NCBI GenBank assembly: GCA_014879945.1 | Contig: JACSRE010000148.1 | Location: 1 to 64,000, forward strand | Reading direction: 5' to 3' | Length of the DNA stretch: 64,000 nt | Source of the DNA: Myxococcus sp. | GTDB lineage: Bacteria; Myxococcota; Myxococcia; Myxococcales; Myxococcaceae | In this document: in pieces, positions 2,961 to 42,873 of the stretch | Numbering within the stretch: the first letter of the stretch is position 1 | Layout: every line of letters starts with the position of its first letter | Position numbers and translations under genes: made by a program | The notes under the pieces: model-generated | The model's input: the letters and a program-made list of their open reading frames with translations, nothing else | What the model was told of the DNA's origin: nothing | The model's database searches: none

Positions 2961-3021
2961 CGCCCTCGCCCTCGATCGGGTGGAGCCCCGTCGCTGAGGC
3001 CGCGCGCGCGGTGACTCTCGA

Positions 3022-3330
3022 CCCATCGGGAGGACGCCCGCGACCCGCCAACCCGAGGCGCGCGCGGCGCCCCCTGACTCGCTGGCGTCTCGCCCCATCG
3101 GGAGGACGCCCGCGACCCGCGAACCCGAGGCGCGCACGGCGACGCCTGACTCGCTGCAGTCTCGCCCCATCGGGGGGACGCCCGCGACCCGCGAACCCGA
3201 GGCGCGCACGGCGACACCTGACTCGCGGCCGTCTCGCCCCATCGGGAGGACGCCCGCGACCCGCGAGGCCGAGCCGCGCGGCGACGCCCGACTCGCTCCC
3301 CGCTCGCCCGACTCGCCCCGTCGGGAGCCA
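3022..3330. repeat. 72-bp tandem repeat, four copies plus a degenerate fifth
   Basis: This fills most of the 455-bp gap between two convergent genes (2961-3415). The block CCCATCGGG(A/G)GGACGCCCG recurs at exactly 72-bp steps beginning at 3022, 3094, 3166 and 3238, with a diverged copy near 3317 (CCCGTCGGGAG). Adjacent units differ at only a few bases. Because 72 is a multiple of 3, long frames stay open on both strands, but these run into clearly coding neighbours, so I treat the array as non-coding. No gene is seen elsewhere in this gap. Confidence 0.85.
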
Positions 3331-20277: not shown

Positions 20278-20498
20278 GCGACTGAATGCGAAGATCGTGA
20301 ATTGGGTGTTTCCGGTGTGATTTCCGGTCGATTCGCTTCAGGGCGACGACCTCGTGGAGTGCCTCAAGGCGCGCCGGCGCCGCGCTCGAGAACAAGGTCA
20401 CCCACCTGAGCGGTGTGCGAAGTTGTTCCTGGGCGCCGCCCGCACCGAAACGATGTCAGCCCCCGCAGATAGAAGGCCGACGATCGGGAGGGGGCTGG
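20278..20498. other. Divergent intergenic region, no gene seen
   Basis: Together with the rpsJ leader this makes a 357-bp gene-free stretch between rpsJ (minus) and the AbiEi-like gene (plus). Apart from the S10 promoter it shows only a short direct repeat (TTTCCGGT twice, near 20310-20328) and the strong GGGAGGGGG ribosome-binding site just before 20499. No open frame with gene-like features was found. Confidence 0.5.
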
Positions 20499-21419
20499 AT
20501 GGACGATCGAGAATATCGGGTGCTGCGACTTGCAGCCCGTCAGCAGGGGGTGATCTCGCGGGCGCAGGCGCTCGCCGAGGGCATGACCGAGCGCATGATC
20601 GACGGTCGCCTCGGTCGCGGCGCGTGGAGCAGGCTCTTCCCGGGCGTCTATCGACTCGAGGGCGCGCCGCGGAGCTGGCTCCAGACCGTCACGGCGGCGG
20701 CCAGCTGGGCTGGGCGCGGCGCCGCGCTGTCGCACCAGACCGCCGCCGCGCTCTGGGGGCTGGCTCGCTTTGGAGAGGCAGAGCCCATTCACGTCACGGT
20801 CGGCTGCTTCCTCCCGCCACCGAAGGGGCTCATCACGCACCAGTCAAAGCTCACCTCGAGAGACGTCGTCGTGCGGCGTGGGTTCCGCGTCACGTCGGTG
20901 TTCCGTACGGTGCTCGACCTCGCCGCGACGGAGCCAGAGGCCGCGGTCGAAGCGGCCGTCGACTCTGCGCTCGCCAAGAAGCTCATGAGGACCGAGGAGC
21001 TTCGGAGGTTCGTCGACCGCCACCGCGGACATCGGGGCGTCAGGCTCCTCAAGAGACTCCTGGAGCGGTACGAAGGAGGCGACGGCCCCACTGAGAGCGA
21101 GCTCGAGTCGAGGGTGCTCGAGACGATCGACGCCGCGGGCCTTCCCCGGCCCGAGCGACAGCGCACCGTCAGCCTCGGGGGCCGCAAGCGTCGGCTCGAC
21201 TTCCGCTTCCCGGGAACCAGGGTGGTCATCGAGGCCGACGGCTTCGCCTGGCACGCCAACCCGATCAGCTTCGAGAAGGACCGTCAGCGAACGAACGCAC
21301 TCGCCGCCAGAGGGTACGTCGTCCTCCACTGGACCTGGGCCGCGCTCGAGGAACGTCCGGGTGAGCTCATCTCGGAGTTGCGCCGCTCGCTCGGCATCCA
21401 CGAGCGCCGCGCCGCCTGA
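20499..21419 (+). CDS. AbiEi-antitoxin-like / DUF559 endonuclease-fold protein
   Basis: 306 residues. The N-terminal part (about 1-60, AARQQGVISRAQALAEGMTE then GVYRLEGAP) matches the winged-helix N-terminal domain of AbiEi-type type IV antitoxins. The C-terminal part (about 225-300) with RRLDFRFPGTRVVIEADGF, WHANPISFEKDRQRTN and YVVLHWTW matches DUF559, a Vsr-like endonuclease fold. ATG 20499 is chosen because GGGAGGGGG lies just upstream. No AbiEii toxin is adjacent, so it is an orphan of the kind common in Actinobacteria and myxobacteria. Its function, defence or otherwise, is unknown. Confidence 0.8.
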   Translation: MDDREYRVLRLAARQQGVISRAQALAEGMTERMIDGRLGRGAWSRLFPGVYRLEGAPRSWLQTVTAAASWAGRGAALSHQTAAALWGLARFGEAEPIHVTVGCFLPPPKGLITHQSKLTSRDVVVRRGFRVTSVFRTVLDLAATEPEAAVEAAVDSALAKKLMRTEELRRFVDRHRGHRGVRLLKRLLERYEGGDGPTESELESRVLETIDAAGLPRPERQRTVSLGGRKRRLDFRFPGTRVVIEADGFAWHANPISFEKDRQRTNALAARGYVVLHWTWAALEERPGELISELRRSLGIHERRAA

Positions 21420-21539
21420 ACCAGGCGGATCTCTGGGAGCGCAGGCGAGCTGAACCGCTCCACGGCTCGAGAGGACCTCGTCGGCGCCAGGCCTTCACCG
21501 TGCCTCCCGCCGCGTCGGATGAAGGACGGACGGCGTGGG

Positions 21540-21574
21540 TCACCACGGTCGCCGTAGCCTCACCGTGGGTGACG
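21540..21574. terminator. Inverted repeat between convergent genes
   Basis: GTCACCACGGT (21540-21550) pairs with ACCGTGGGTGAC (21563-21574) with one bulged base, loop of 12 nt. It lies in the roughly 200-bp gap between two convergent genes, so it could act as a bidirectional terminator. No T-run is present on either side. Confidence 0.35.
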
Positions 21575-21626
21575 CACACGCCGCGAGCGCGGCTCACCCG
21601 ATTCCCGAAGGGCTGCGCGACCTGCG

Positions 21627-22172
21627 TCAGAGCTGCGCGGCGAGCACCGCCAGCTCCTCGGGAGCGAGAGCGGGCATGTTGGCCTTGATCTTCTCGATGA
21701 GGCCCTCGTCGCCCGTGTACTCGGCAGCACAGCCAGGGTGAAGATAGCCGGGCCCCGTCGCCGCGAAGGAGCCGGTGTCGACCTCGCGCTCGACGGCGAC
21801 GCGCATGGAGTCCTTCTCGATCGCGCTCCCGCAGTGCAGGCACTTCGACCGGCTCGTCGAGGCGCGCTCTGCGTACGGGTACGCAGCCCTGGGGGCCCCC
21901 TTCCCGCTCGCCCTGGGTGGGGCCGCAAGAATGGCCTCGAGCTTCTCTCGGTCGGGGATCGGGCCGCCGAAGTTCACCATCGCCGCCCTCACCTTCGCCG
22001 GAACCTTGCCGGCAGCGCACGCGAGGTGGTGCCAGAAGTAGCTGCTGCCGCCGTCCGAGCTGAACGTGTTCGGCGTCTCTTCCCCGAACCGGAGCACCGC
22101 CTTGTCGATCTTCTGCTTGCAGGTTCGACACGTCGCTCGGTTCGACTTCGACTCCTCAATGAGATCGGGCAT
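21627..22172 (-). CDS. Protein with two PARP-type zinc fingers
   Basis: 181 residues. Two fingers of the zf-PARP pattern are visible: C15-x2-C18 ... H49-x2-C52 ([22 protein letters not shown]) and C111-x2-C114 ... H145-x2-C148 ([21 protein letters not shown]). In eukaryotic PARP1 and DNA ligase III such fingers recognise DNA breaks. No ADP-ribosyltransferase domain is present here. About 60 residues with an Ala/Pro-rich linker separate the fingers. Starts at ATG 22172. A DNA-nick-sensing role is inference from the fold only. Confidence 0.75.
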
Positions 22173-22495
22173 ACGGCCGCGAGCCTAGTCGATTCGCGCT
22201 GAGAACAACGCGCCCCACCCGCAGCGTCGTCAGCGTTGTTTTCGGCATGGGCGGGCGCTCGAGCGAAGGGAGGTCAGTGACCCGGGCGCGCTTCGCGCTT
22301 GCGCTCGGTGTGCTGCGCGCACCGCCTCGCGGGGCGGAAGGCCACGGGGCTCCTGGCGGGGGCCTGCTGGGTGCGGGGGCGCGGGCGGGAGTCGACTGCC
22401 ATCGACAGATCTCGACCCGTCGCGGGGGCGTCATCGCGCTGGTGCCTGGGTTGCTGGATGCCTTGCGCCAGCTCGCCGGCGATTCGGCCAGGCGG
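22173..22495. other. Intergenic region without a recognised gene
   Basis: Leads from the PARP-finger gene start to the repeat array. Very GC-rich. Open frames exist on both strands but have no recognisable protein features and continue into the repeats in several frames. I see no RNA gene or promoter I would defend. Confidence 0.4.
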
Positions 22496-23430
22496 CGGCG
22501 CGTGGGCGCCCACCTTGTCCGCGCGAGGCGCTTCATCGCAGAAGCCAGCCTCGCCTCGTCGGCCTGCAGCAGCTCCACCGAAGAGACGCGCACGCGACCT
22601 CGAGACGGAGCTCCCGACGCGGACGCGGCGATCAGGCCACGCCCGGCCGGCGGCGCGTGGGCGCCCACCTCTCCGCGCGAGGCGCTTCATCTCAGTCGCC
22701 ACCTCGCCTCGTCGGCCTGCGCAGCTCCACGAAGCCGCGCACCGCGCCCCCGAGACGGAGCTCACCGAGCCGGACGCGGCGGTCAGGCCACTGCCGGGCG
22801 GCGGCGCCTGGGCGCCAACCTTGTCCGCGCGAGGCGCTTCATCTCAGACGCCAGCCTCGGCTCTCGGCCTGCGCAGCTCCTCCGAAGACGCGCCCCGCGA
22901 CTCGAGACGGAGCTCACCGAGCCGGACGCGGCGGTCAGGCCACGGCCGGGCGGCGGCGCGTGGGCGCCCACCTCTCCGCGCGAGGCAGTGCATCGCAGAA
23001 GCCAGCCTCGCCTCGTCGGCCTGCGCAGCTCCACGAAGCCGCGCACCGCGACCTCGAGACGGAGCTCACCGAGCCGGACGCGGCGAGCGCCAACCTGTCT
23101 GCGCGAGGCGCTTTATCGCAGACTCCAGCCTCGCTTCGTCGGCCTGCGCAGCTCCACCTCGAGACGGAGCTCACCGAGCCGGACGCGTCAGTCAGGCCAC
23201 GGCCGGGAGGCGATTGGTGGATTGGGCCGGGCGGCGGAGCGTGAGCGCCCACCTGGCCGCGCGAGCGCTTCGTCGCAGAAGCCAGCCTCGCCTCGCCGGC
23301 CTGCGCAGCTCCACGAAGCCGCGCTCCTCGAGAAGGAGCTCGGCGAGCTCGCCGCGCCGGACACCTCGCTCAGGCCACGGCTGGGAGGCGATCGGTCGAT
23401 TCGGCCGGGCGGCGGAGCGTGAGCGCCCAC
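22496..23430. repeat. Array of about six 150-bp degenerate tandem repeats
   Basis: A block containing the palindrome TGGGCGCCCA, then CCGCGCGAGGCGCTTCATC, a GAAGCCAGCCTCGCCTCGTC segment, CTGCGCAGCTCCACGAAGC, and GACGGAGCTCACCGAGCCGG recurs. Anchors lie at about 22501, 22656, 22807, 22959, 23087 and 23240, with a final partial anchor at 23419. Spacings are 155, 151 and 152 bp, then a shorter unit with about 28 bp deleted, then about 150-180. The spacings are not multiples of 3, so the repeat is not preserved as protein. The last partial copy forms the 3' end of the desaturase gene. Confidence 0.85.
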
Positions 23431-24617
23431 AAGACCGACGCGACGGCGAGCACATCGCCCGCGACCACCCCGCTCATCGGCAGCACCTGCGTGGCGCCGA
23501 GCGCGCTCAGCACCACCGCGGTGGCGAGCAACCGGCCCACTTCGAGCCTCACCGCCCACGACTTCGACTCCAGCACGGCGCTCCACGCCGTCGCGGTCGC
23601 CCAGATCACCAACGAGACGATGACCTTCTGCCACCACGAAAGCGGCGACTGCCCGTGAATCACCAGGAGCATGATCGGGAACCCCAGCAGCACCTGCACC
23701 ACGAGGTACGGCTTGCTCCCCGGGAGCGCCACCGACTGAAACTTGATCTCTTTCCCGTCGACCGTCTTCCAGCCAGCGCCCTTCTTCCGCTCCGGCACCC
23801 CGGCAGGCCGCCACCCGGTCGGCATGAACCACACCCGCAGCTTGTCGAAGTACGACGGCGCATCCCACGCGTCGCGAATCACCTCACGCCACACCTGGAA
23901 GTTGATGAACGTCGGGTCCCACGTGTTGGGCGGGCTGGTGACGCCGTAGGAGCACTCCTCGGTCTCGTCTTCGTACGACCCGAAGAGCTTGTCCCAGATG
24001 ATGAGGAAGCCACCGTAGTTCTTGTCCAGGTAGATCTCGTTGCGGGCGTGGTGCACGCGGTGGTGGCTGGGCGTGTTCATCCACGACTCGATCCACGCCG
24101 GCAACTTCGGCACCACCCGCGTGTGGGGAATGAGCTGGAGCACCAGGTGGAAGGCCACCATCGCGATCACCCACTGGGCCTCGAAGCCGATGAAGGCGAG
24201 CGGCCAGTAGAAGAAGAACGAGAAGAAGCGCTGGGTCACCGAGGCGCGCAGGCCGACGGCGTAGTTGAGCTCCTCGGTGGAGTGGTGCGGCATGTGCGCG
24301 GCCCAGCCGATGTTGGTGCGGTGCCCGAACCGGTGAAACCAGTAGAAGAGGAAGTCGACCCCGAGGAAGAGCGCCAGGCCCGTCCACACGTTGGCTTCGA
24401 CCTTGAAGAGGCCGTGCTCCGACAGCCACCCCAGCACGGGGTACCACAGCACCGCGACCAGCACGTTGACGCACTGGTTGATGATGGCGGTGCCCAGGCT
24501 CGAGACCGAGTCCTGGAACTCGTAGTACCCGTTGTCGCGCTTGAGACAGAAGAAGACCTCGAGCGCGATGAGCACGAGCACGAACGGGGTGGCGACGGCG
24601 TAGATGTTGATCGGCAT
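23370..24617 (-). CDS. Sterol desaturase / fatty acid hydroxylase family membrane protein
   Basis: 415 residues. Di-iron membrane oxygenase fold with the three His clusters HRFGH (95-99), HMPHH (108-112) and HHRVHH (185-190). The layout is close to alkylglycerol monooxygenase-like (TMEM195-type) members. At least six hydrophobic segments are seen, including a C-terminal set at about 300-395. The final 19 residues (WALTLRRPAESTDRLPAVA) and the stop codon are encoded by the repeat array, so the original C-terminus may have been replaced. It is divergent from a Crp/Fnr-type regulator, a pairing that suggests control by that regulator. The substrate is unknown. Confidence 0.88.
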   Translation of the reverse strand: MPINIYAVATPFVLVLIALEVFFCLKRDNGYYEFQDSVSSLGTAIINQCVNVLVAVLWYPVLGWLSEHGLFKVEANVWTGLALFLGVDFLFYWFHRFGHRTNIGWAAHMPHHSTEELNYAVGLRASVTQRFFSFFFYWPLAFIGFEAQWVIAMVAFHLVLQLIPHTRVVPKLPAWIESWMNTPSHHRVHHARNEIYLDKNYGGFLIIWDKLFGSYEDETEECSYGVTSPPNTWDPTFINFQVWREVIRDAWDAPSYFDKLRVWFMPTGWRPAGVPERKKGAGWKTVDGKEIKFQSVALPGSKPYLVVQVLLGFPIMLLVIHGQSPLSWWQKVIVSLVIWATATAWSAVLESKSWAVRLEVGRLLATAVVLSALGATQVLPMSGVVAGDVLAVASVLWALTLRRPAESTDRLPAVA

Positions 24618-24652
24618 GGGCGCCCTCGTAGCGGCAGCGCCCCACCCTTTGC

Positions 24653-24668
24653 CTTAACCCGGGTTAAG
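24653..24668. promoter_or_regulatory. 16-bp perfect palindrome between divergent genes, operator candidate
   Basis: CTTAACCCGGGTTAAG is a perfect 16-bp palindrome, AT-rich at its edges in an otherwise GC-rich context. It is 35 bp upstream of the desaturase start and 11 bp upstream of the regulator start, where it could repress or activate both. It does not match the Crp (TGTGA-N6-TCACA) or Fnr (TTGAT-N4-ATCAA) consensus. Confidence 0.65.
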
Positions 24669-24679
24669 AACGACGGCCG

Positions 24680-25291
24680 ATGCTGACCGCGATGGAAGAG
24701 CGCGCGCTCCACGAGCGCTTTGGAGCGCTGGCGCCGCTCTCACCAAAGACCTGGAAGGCGATCGTCGCGCTCGGGTCACGGGAGTCGCTGGCCGAGGGCG
24801 CCTTCTTCTCGCAGCCGGGCAAGCCCGCGACGCGCTTCGCGGTGGTGATCTCGGGGCTGTTGCGTCACTACTACCTCGACGCGAAGGGCAAGGAGTCGGT
24901 GAAGGCCTTTCGCGGGCCGATGGAGCTCAGCGGGCCGTACGCCGAGATCGTCCAGCGCCGCCCCTCGCGCACCTTCATCGAGGCGCTCACCGACGCCGAG
25001 CTGTTCGTCTTCGAGGTGGCGGCGATCGACGAGGCGGCAGAGACGTCGCTCGAGCTCCAGCGGCTGGTGCGGCGCTTCGTCGAGGTGCAGTTCGTCGCGA
25101 AGGAGCAGCGCGAGTACGAGTTCCTGCTGCTGTCGGCCGAGGAGCGCTACCGCCAGTTCTGCGCGAGCCTGCCGGAGCTCGTGCAGCACATCCCCCAGCA
25201 CCAGATCGCCTCGTACATCGGCATCACCCCGGTGGCGCTCAGCCGCATTCGGGCACGCGGGCGGAAGCGCGCAGAAAAACGAAGGCCCTGA
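24680..25291 (+). CDS. Crp/Fnr-family transcriptional regulator
   Basis: 203 residues. A cyclic-nucleotide-binding-type beta-barrel (about 20-115, with [20 protein letters not shown]) and a C-terminal helix-turn-helix (about 160-195, [20 protein letters not shown]). The sensor domain lacks a convincing cAMP phosphate-binding motif and the four-Cys Fe-S motif of Fnr, so the ligand is unknown. It is divergent from the desaturase gene with a palindrome between. No ribosome-binding site precedes either ATG (24680 or 24692). The stop codon lies inside the stem of the downstream terminator. Confidence 0.85.
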
Positions 25292-41631: not shown

Positions 41632-42873
41632 ATGATCACTCGTGCGCTCTTCGTCTTCATGGTCGCCTGCGGGGTGAGCGTTGGGCTCGCCGGCTGCGGC
41701 GTGTCGCAGTCACGCTGCTCGCAAGCCACCTGCACCGTCGGGTGCTGCGACTCGAGCGGGGCCTGCGCTTCGGGCAATACCCAGTCGGCCTGCGGAGCTC
41801 GTGGTGCGGCCTGTGTCGGCTGCACGTTCGGGTTCCAGTGCCTCGGCGGAGCCTGCATCGCGACCGGCAACGGCACCGGTGGAGGCTTCGCGACGGGCGG
41901 CGGCAACAACACCGCGGGCGGCTCAGCGACGGGCGGCGGCAACACCGCGGGCGGCTCCGCGACCGGCGGCGGCAACACCGCGGGCGGCTCAGCGACGGGC
42001 GGCGGCAACACCGCGGGCGGCTCCGCGACCGGCGGCGGCGACACCGCGGGCGGCTCCGCGACCGGCGGCGGCAACACCGCGGGCGGCTCGGCGACGGGCG
42101 GCGGCAACGCCGCGGGCGGCTCGGCGACGGGTGGCGGCAACACCGCGGGCGGCTCCGCGACGGGTGGCGGCAACGCCGCGGGCGGCTCCGCGACGGGTGG
42201 CGGCAACGCCGCGGGCGGCTCGGCGACGGGCGGCGGCAACACCGCGGGCGGCTCGGCGACGGGTGGCGGCAACGCCGCGGGCGGCTCGGCGACGGGCGGC
42301 GGCAACACCGCAGGCGGCTCCGCGACCGGCGGCGGGACGGCGGGCTGCGCCGCCTCGTGCGCGGGCTGCTGCCTCAACGGCGTTTGCCAGCCTGGCAACA
42401 CCACCGGCGCGTGCGGCGCCCGGGGCGTCGCGTGCTTCGCCTGCTCCACCAACCAGTTCTGCTCGGCGGGCGCCTGCACCGGCGCGAACACCGGCGACAC
42501 CGGCGCGACGTGCACCGTCAACGCCGACTGCAAGCAGGCCCTGCTCGGAGGCGCGACGCGCGAGTGCCTGGCGCCGTACCGGCCCGATGGTGGCCCGTCG
42601 GGGTGGCCGGGCGGGTACTGCAGCAACGCGGGCTGCAGCTCGTTCCTCGACTGCCCCGGCACCACCGGCTCCTGCGGCCGCGACGGCTTCTGCTACAACA
42701 CCTGCTTCCCCTCGAACCTGGGCCAGGGCAACTGCCGACCCGGCTACGTCTGCTCCGATGCCCTCACCGTCGACGGCGGCACCTTCGCCCTCTGCGTGCC
42801 CGACTGCAGAAACCCCGGCAGCATCTGGTGCGGCCCCGGAGGCGTCTGCAACAGCAGCGGCTACTGCCAATGA
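41632..42873 (+). CDS. Cys-rich lipoprotein with GGSATGGGNTA repeats
   Basis: 413 residues. The signal peptide ends in the lipobox LAGC (Cys 22). Next are a Cys-rich module (CSQATCTVGCCDSSGAC ... CGARGAACVGC), then 13 tandem 11-residue repeats (GGSATGGGNTA and variants NAA, DTA), a second copy of the Cys-rich module (CAASCAGCCLNGVC ... CGARGVACFAC), and a C-terminal region of about 130 residues with many paired cysteines. The Gly-rich repeat looks like a flexible spacer between two disulphide-knotted domains on the cell surface. The first module also occurs in the lipoprotein at 4573-5385. No enzymatic motif is seen. Confidence 0.8.
   Translation: MITRALFVFMVACGVSVGLAGCGVSQSRCSQATCTVGCCDSSGACASGNTQSACGARGAACVGCTFGFQCLGGACIATGNGTGGGFATGGGNNTAGGSATGGGNTAGGSATGGGNTAGGSATGGGNTAGGSATGGGDTAGGSATGGGNTAGGSATGGGNAAGGSATGGGNTAGGSATGGGNAAGGSATGGGNAAGGSATGGGNTAGGSATGGGNAAGGSATGGGNTAGGSATGGGTAGCAASCAGCCLNGVCQPGNTTGACGARGVACFACSTNQFCSAGACTGANTGDTGATCTVNADCKQALLGGATRECLAPYRPDGGPSGWPGGYCSNAGCSSFLDCPGTTGSCGRDGFCYNTCFPSNLGQGNCRPGYVCSDALTVDGGTFALCVPDCRNPGSIWCGPGGVCNSSGYCQ
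41917..42345 (+). repeat. 33-bp in-frame tandem repeat, 13 copies
   Basis: 13 copies of a 33-bp unit (GGCGGCTCCGCGACGGGCGG and 13 more bases) encode GGSATGGGNTA-type repeats inside the Cys-rich lipoprotein. One more degenerate unit precedes it. Copies differ mostly at synonymous sites and at one Thr/Ala position, so slippage or recombination could change copy number. Confidence 0.95.

Follow-up and report, generated by a model that had tools for sequence, protein, structure and literature searches.

A species-specific, minisatellite-like tandem array behind a fatty-acid hydroxylase gene of Myxococcus sp., probably born by duplication of the gene's own 3′ end

The window analyzed here, a stretch of 64,000 nucleotides from Myxococcus sp., is part of contig C60 of a 7.7 Mb assembly in 448 contigs; the nearest named relatives of this genome are Archangium-like and Myxococcaceae MAGs. 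Between a minus-strand gene of the fatty-acid hydroxylase / sterol desaturase family and a minus-strand zf-PARP gene lies a tandem array of six units and a partial seventh, each of approximately 155 bp (22480-23431; Table 1). TRF reported a period of 152 with 3.9 copies (score 926) for 22485-23085, and the best off-diagonal self-match of 22496-23430 scored 617 bits, compared with a maximum of 34.6 bits in 60 Markov shuffles. Read on the minus strand from the gene outwards, the units measure 178, 158, 123, 152, 151 and 155 bp, and the seventh is truncated. An array of about 0.9 kb of degenerate repeats, with spacings of 155, 151 and 152 bp that do not preserve a frame, is what the initial annotation had described, and these data confirm it in all these respects; its one unit with an internal deletion corresponds to unit 3, from which approximately 29 bp are missing. 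It had overlooked that the well-supported hydroxylase gene on the minus strand runs with its 3′ end into the array and that the units contain copies of this gene end.

Table 1. Features at and around the array, units being numbered from the hydroxylase gene outwards.
Feature	Position	Strand	Remarks
Fatty-acid hydroxylase / sterol desaturase family gene	23370-24617	minus	Pfam FA_hydroxylase, E 1.4e-25
Head of unit 1, the gene's own final 20 codons + TGA (TGTGGGCGCTCACG...GTGGCCTGA)	23370-23431	minus	ortholog C-terminus alignment
Spacer X1	23254-23369	minus	retains 9-nt stretch common to C192 gene, missing from X2-X6
Unit 2 gene-end copy	23192-23253	minus	57/62 identical to native end
Spacer X2	23096-23191	minus	21-bp internal deletion
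Unit 3 gene-end vestige (9 bp)	23087-23095	minus	123-bp unit; internal deletion of the initial annotation
Spacer X3	22973-23086	minus	nearest to ectopic copy, contig C246 (93%, 105 bp)
Unit 4 gene-end copy	22935-22972	minus	24-bp deletion; perfect palindrome TGGGCGCCCA
Spacer X4	22821-22934	minus	
Unit 5 gene-end copy	22783-22820	minus	24-bp deletion as in unit 4
Spacer X5	22670-22782	minus	
Unit 6 gene-end copy	22632-22669	minus	24-bp deletion as in unit 4; perfect palindrome
Spacer X6	22515-22631	minus	
Unit 7, truncated gene-end copy	22480-22514	minus	stops at GGCCGAATCG (distal array end); palindrome perfect
43-bp dyad copy	22201-22243		one mismatch
zf-PARP gene	21627-22172	minus	
43-bp dyad copy	20388-20430		three arm mismatches
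Further dyad copies	L189, L191, L192-L196, L200, L209-L221		

In the minus-strand reading, each unit consists of a copy of the hydroxylase gene's 3′ end (the last 20 codons and the TGA) followed by a spacer of approximately 115 bp, termed X. The head of unit 1, TGTGGGCGCTCACGCTCCGCC...GTGGCCTGA, is translated ...WALTLRRPAESTDRLPAVA*. Hydroxylase orthologs were found in five congeners (80-89%), and most of them end in a similar ...WA(L/V)xLRR...xPxxA*; the endings in G002, G004, G005 and G006 are alike (...WAVSLRRAVSAAQVPELA*, ...WALSLRRADERLPEPA*) and lie at approximately the same place, that of G003 being more divergent, and the nucleotide alignment of the gene to its relatives reaches about 23395-23425. 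Because the ortholog endings match at approximately the same place, it is the native end of the gene, and not a repeat that the gene has captured, that forms the head of unit 1. The whole 62-bp gene end is repeated in unit 2, and in units 4 to 6 the gene-end stretch carries one common 24-bp deletion between CCCGGCCG and CCCAGCCG, a kind of deletion typical of slippage; the order of the units can be read from such shared deletions. Contrary to the earlier judgement that the element cannot be assigned, its unit can be traced to the 3′ end of a gene, duplicated together with a spacer, and the palindrome is a by-product of Trp-Ala-Leu codons.

This palindromic core had been described as common to all six units. 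A palindrome of 10 bp is indeed present, but it is perfect in only three of the seven units: TGGGCGCCCA occurs within the array at 22503, 22658 and 22961, and a fourth match in the window (52325) lies outside it. The corresponding position reads TGGGCGCTCA in the two gene-proximal units, and two other units start with GTTGGCGC. Given the gene-end origin of the unit heads, TGGGCGCCCA represents the Trp-Ala-Leu codons TGGGCGCTCA (TGG-GCG-CTC-A) after one T-to-C change inside the array. With the palindrome as a codon relic, a seemingly unassignable repeat finds its explanation as an amplified gene end, and such a locus is a trap for automated calling of repeats and non-coding RNAs.

Folding of single units, which the initial annotation had proposed, gave z-scores of -0.81 to +0.93 over both strands, none of them above shuffles. 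In a consensus fold, a two-sided change was seen in 1 of 39 predicted pairs and the covariation term was unfavourable, and at the gathering threshold Rfam had no match between 5940 and 25332. On these fold scores, the Rfam result and the covariation term, a structured RNA was rejected. A consensus scan revealed no terminator and no sigma-70-like promoter in the array, and a nucleoid-protein or small-RNA role of the array found no support here. The same data bear on the idea of a functional regulatory or binding-site array, be it for a nucleoid protein, for a transcription factor at TGGGCGCCCA, or as a 3′-UTR or terminator element of the hydroxylase gene. Regular spacing, the perfect 10-bp palindrome of three units and the position directly behind a gene would fit such a role; with no structure beyond shuffles, a palindrome that is missing from the gene-proximal units and lies one change away from codons, and no counterpart in any relative examined, we regard it as very unlikely.

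Long GC-rich open reading frames traverse the array on the plus strand (22247-23422 and 22299-24686) and X is in part similar to coding DNA, which could suggest a degenerate protein-repeat gene. Units differ in length by 1, 2, 20 and 29 bp, however, so that every frame is disrupted, GC content by codon position is nearly flat (73.6/72.5/78.4 compared with 58/41/96 in the neighbouring gene), and the reading frames have no Pfam match and the unit no homologs in relatives. A protein-repeat gene, hardly credible on this evidence, was rejected; the protein repeat frame conserved in relatives that the initial annotation had set against its own non-coding reading was not found.

Next we considered the distribution of the array. 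At the orthologous site of five congeners (G002-G006), nucleotide homology ends with the hydroxylase gene and no unit lies beyond it. BLAST found no match to the array at 33 named ortholog loci, the X sequence profile detected nothing comparable in 58 other genomes of the family, and no contig of GTDB or IMG/VR, among which this genome's own records are possibly absent, matched an exact pattern; the literature search yielded no description of this repeat. A dispersed family in the genome or genus was also rejected as a candidate, the many matches at E 0.001-0.1 in other high-GC genomes looking like compositional background. By sequence comparison, the array appears species-specific among the genomes searched.

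Within this genome, the X profile found the six copies and C246:46995-47112 alone at E<1e-20, and in profile R1 the array, C246 and a gene in contig C192 alone stood clearly above background. The search for the unit in the genome and its relatives, likewise proposed before, thus revealed one ectopic copy in C246 and none in congeners: of the earlier wording "dispersed or amplified non-coding", the amplified and non-coding part holds, while dispersal is minimal, with one other copy in 7.7 Mb. The genome search aligned 105 bp of the C246 copy to window 22964-23068 at 93%. It is intergenic, between RNase R and dus genes, in a spacer of approximately 370 bp compared with roughly 50-120 bp in G002 and G004, and is nearest to X3 (92%, compared with 84-90% for the other X copies). 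The X copies are 84-93% identical to one another, a similarity that may reflect recent spread, gene conversion or weak constraint.

The second intergenic site, with its RNase R-dus spacer longer than in G002 and G004, and the nearly identical ends of the copies at both loci raise the question whether X (about 105-115 bp) could be a small non-coding mobile element of MITE or REP type, inserted both downstream of the hydroxylase gene and into C246, the gene end being co-amplified by accident. We consider this improbable. A single extra copy is found in 7.7 Mb and none in congeners, and inspection by eye of C246 and the array, two loci being all there is to compare, revealed no terminal inverted repeats or target duplications. 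Moreover, the C246 copy looks copied out of the array, since it is nearest to X3 and starts and ends within gene-end-like letters (GGCCTGA...GTGGGCGC).

In its first half, X matches the conserved coiled-coil gene in C192 in reverse orientation (51 nt, 88%, E 8.7e-11; alignment score 39, maximum 26 in 300 Markov shuffles). A second stretch of X matches the same gene at 24 of 25 nt, in the orientation opposite to the first match, and the two matches overlap by 2 nt at the joint; the 25-nt match is short and may be a coincidence of codon usage. Nine nucleotides of the C192 gene are kept by X1 alone, and X3 keeps six that X1 lost. As X1 and X3 retain different nucleotides of the gene, the common ancestor of the X copies was nearer to it than any survivor, and unit 1 is distinct from the amplified rest because the 9-nt stretch is absent from X2 to X6. 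Taken alone, a chimaeric origin of X from this gene is conceivable. The gene itself (L003 735-2120) encodes a 461-aa coiled-coil, membrane-like protein that is conserved in the genus and has no Pfam match.

Together, these data argue, with a probability of roughly 0.84, for a species-specific, non-coding, minisatellite-like array that was born by tandem duplication of the gene end and X and most likely lacks a function of its own. A spacer X of approximately 115 bp would have been newly acquired, perhaps by capture, downstream of the hydroxylase gene, and the gene end of approximately 62 bp would then have been duplicated head to tail together with X. Later units would have been amplified from a derived copy by unequal recombination or replication slippage, the copies would since have decayed by point mutations and by slippage deletions at short direct repeats, and one X copy would have been transferred to the second intergenic site. 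That copy counts against this explanation to the extent that X has moved at least once, and so does the identity of 84-93% that the X copies still share. Since the intact stop codon of the gene stays in unit 1, the copies beyond it would be neutral passengers; neutrality is the most economical account of the array as seen in one draft genome. If so, the locus presents an unusually readable birth of a tandem array in a bacterium, in which seed, intermediate and derived units all survive.

Among known repeat classes, bacterial minisatellites or VNTR loci are tandem repeats whose unit measures 20 bp or more, of which a working definition counts only those at least 90% identical (PMC2884548). The array is likewise head to tail (TRF period 152, score 926; six full units aligned), non-coding, composed of units above 20 bp, species-restricted and marked by slippage-type indels. 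It differs in its long unit (about 152 bp), in its diverged copies (84-93% in X) and in a seed that can be traced to a gene end and possibly a captured fragment. Because this older, degenerate array falls short of 90% identity, "minisatellite-like" is the safer word. Minisatellites are also expected to vary in copy number between strains; the analysis covered one genome of this species. With REP/PU elements and BIME mosaics it shares a short palindrome and an extragenic site just behind a gene, but there is no conserved stem-loop or hairpin (z -0.81 to +0.93), the palindrome is perfect in three of seven units, and copies reside at two loci only instead of forming a genome-wide family. Mycobacterial interspersed repetitive units (MIRU) are tandem and dispersed intergenic repeats found at many loci; the array is similarly tandem and dispersed between genes, but at two loci only.

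The array occupies the gap next to one end of an inversion. Compared with G002 and G004, window 20378-22245, which carries an AbiEi_4-DUF559 gene (20499-21419) and the zf-PARP gene, is inverted, and the zf-PARP gene has the non-inverted orientation in G005 too. Each end of the inversion falls on a copy of a 43-bp dyad, GAGAACAAC-n25-GTTGTTCTC, and recombination between the two palindromes would give the inversion. For the 230 bp that separate the array from the dyad (22246-22470), no homology was found elsewhere in the genome. The array might have formed within this rearrangement, whose inverted segment the two dyads bound, with X as a chimaera that joins two fragments of the C192 gene in opposite orientations (51-63 nt reversed plus 25 nt forward, 2 nt common at the joint); we consider this combined scenario rather unlikely. 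If it were true, the locus would record the joint birth of a palindrome prone to recombination, a repair of a break by filler DNA, and a minisatellite.

The dyad has a fixed length of 43 bp with an inner CCACC/GGTGG. A pattern search located it in G000, G002, G004 and G006, a reversed-pattern control giving no matches, and a model detected it in five of seven genomes of the genus and in 0 of 33 others. It is dispersed genome-wide, and clustered in G006, including five copies at 87-bp spacing. In G000, G002, G004 and G006, the closest AbiEi_4-DUF559 genes have it 63-68 bp ahead of their likely start codon, and a degenerate dyad lies 73 bp upstream of the closest such gene in G005; the other AbiEi_4-DUF559 paralogs examined have no dyad at that position. 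The dyad-free genomes are G001, which has no AbiEi_4-DUF559 gene, and G003, which has a distant one only (51%). Approximately 4 independent loci had dyad clusters within 2 kb of AbiEi_4-DUF559 genes, compared with approximately 0.09 expected by a rough Poisson estimate with clusters counted by hand. Dyad pair counts were not above the shuffle control, and the dyad is therefore better read as DNA-binding than as an RNA hairpin. AbiEi antitoxins autoregulate by binding inverted repeats (PMC7319586), which makes an operator the likeliest role of the dyad near these genes; it is likely the operator of an orphan AbiEi_4-DUF559 antitoxin-nuclease fusion. Dyad and gene may possibly also form a REP/RAYT-like partnership. 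Tied to these genes, the dyad is a better lead for new biology than the array. Roughly 20-60 bp upstream of the AbiEi_4-DUF559 start codon, 12 of 12 homologs examined (L197-L208), including homologs without dyad, carry TGTCAGnCC, a promoter-like motif after which CTGCTA often follows.

Two further tandem repeats occur in the window, both with a unit that is a multiple of three: a 72-bp repeat at 3016-3309 (4.1 copies, 89%) and a strong 33-bp repeat at 41884-42335 (13.6 copies, 92% matches; GGCTCCGCGACGGGCGGCGGCAACACCGCGGGC), the latter perhaps a low-complexity protein repeat.
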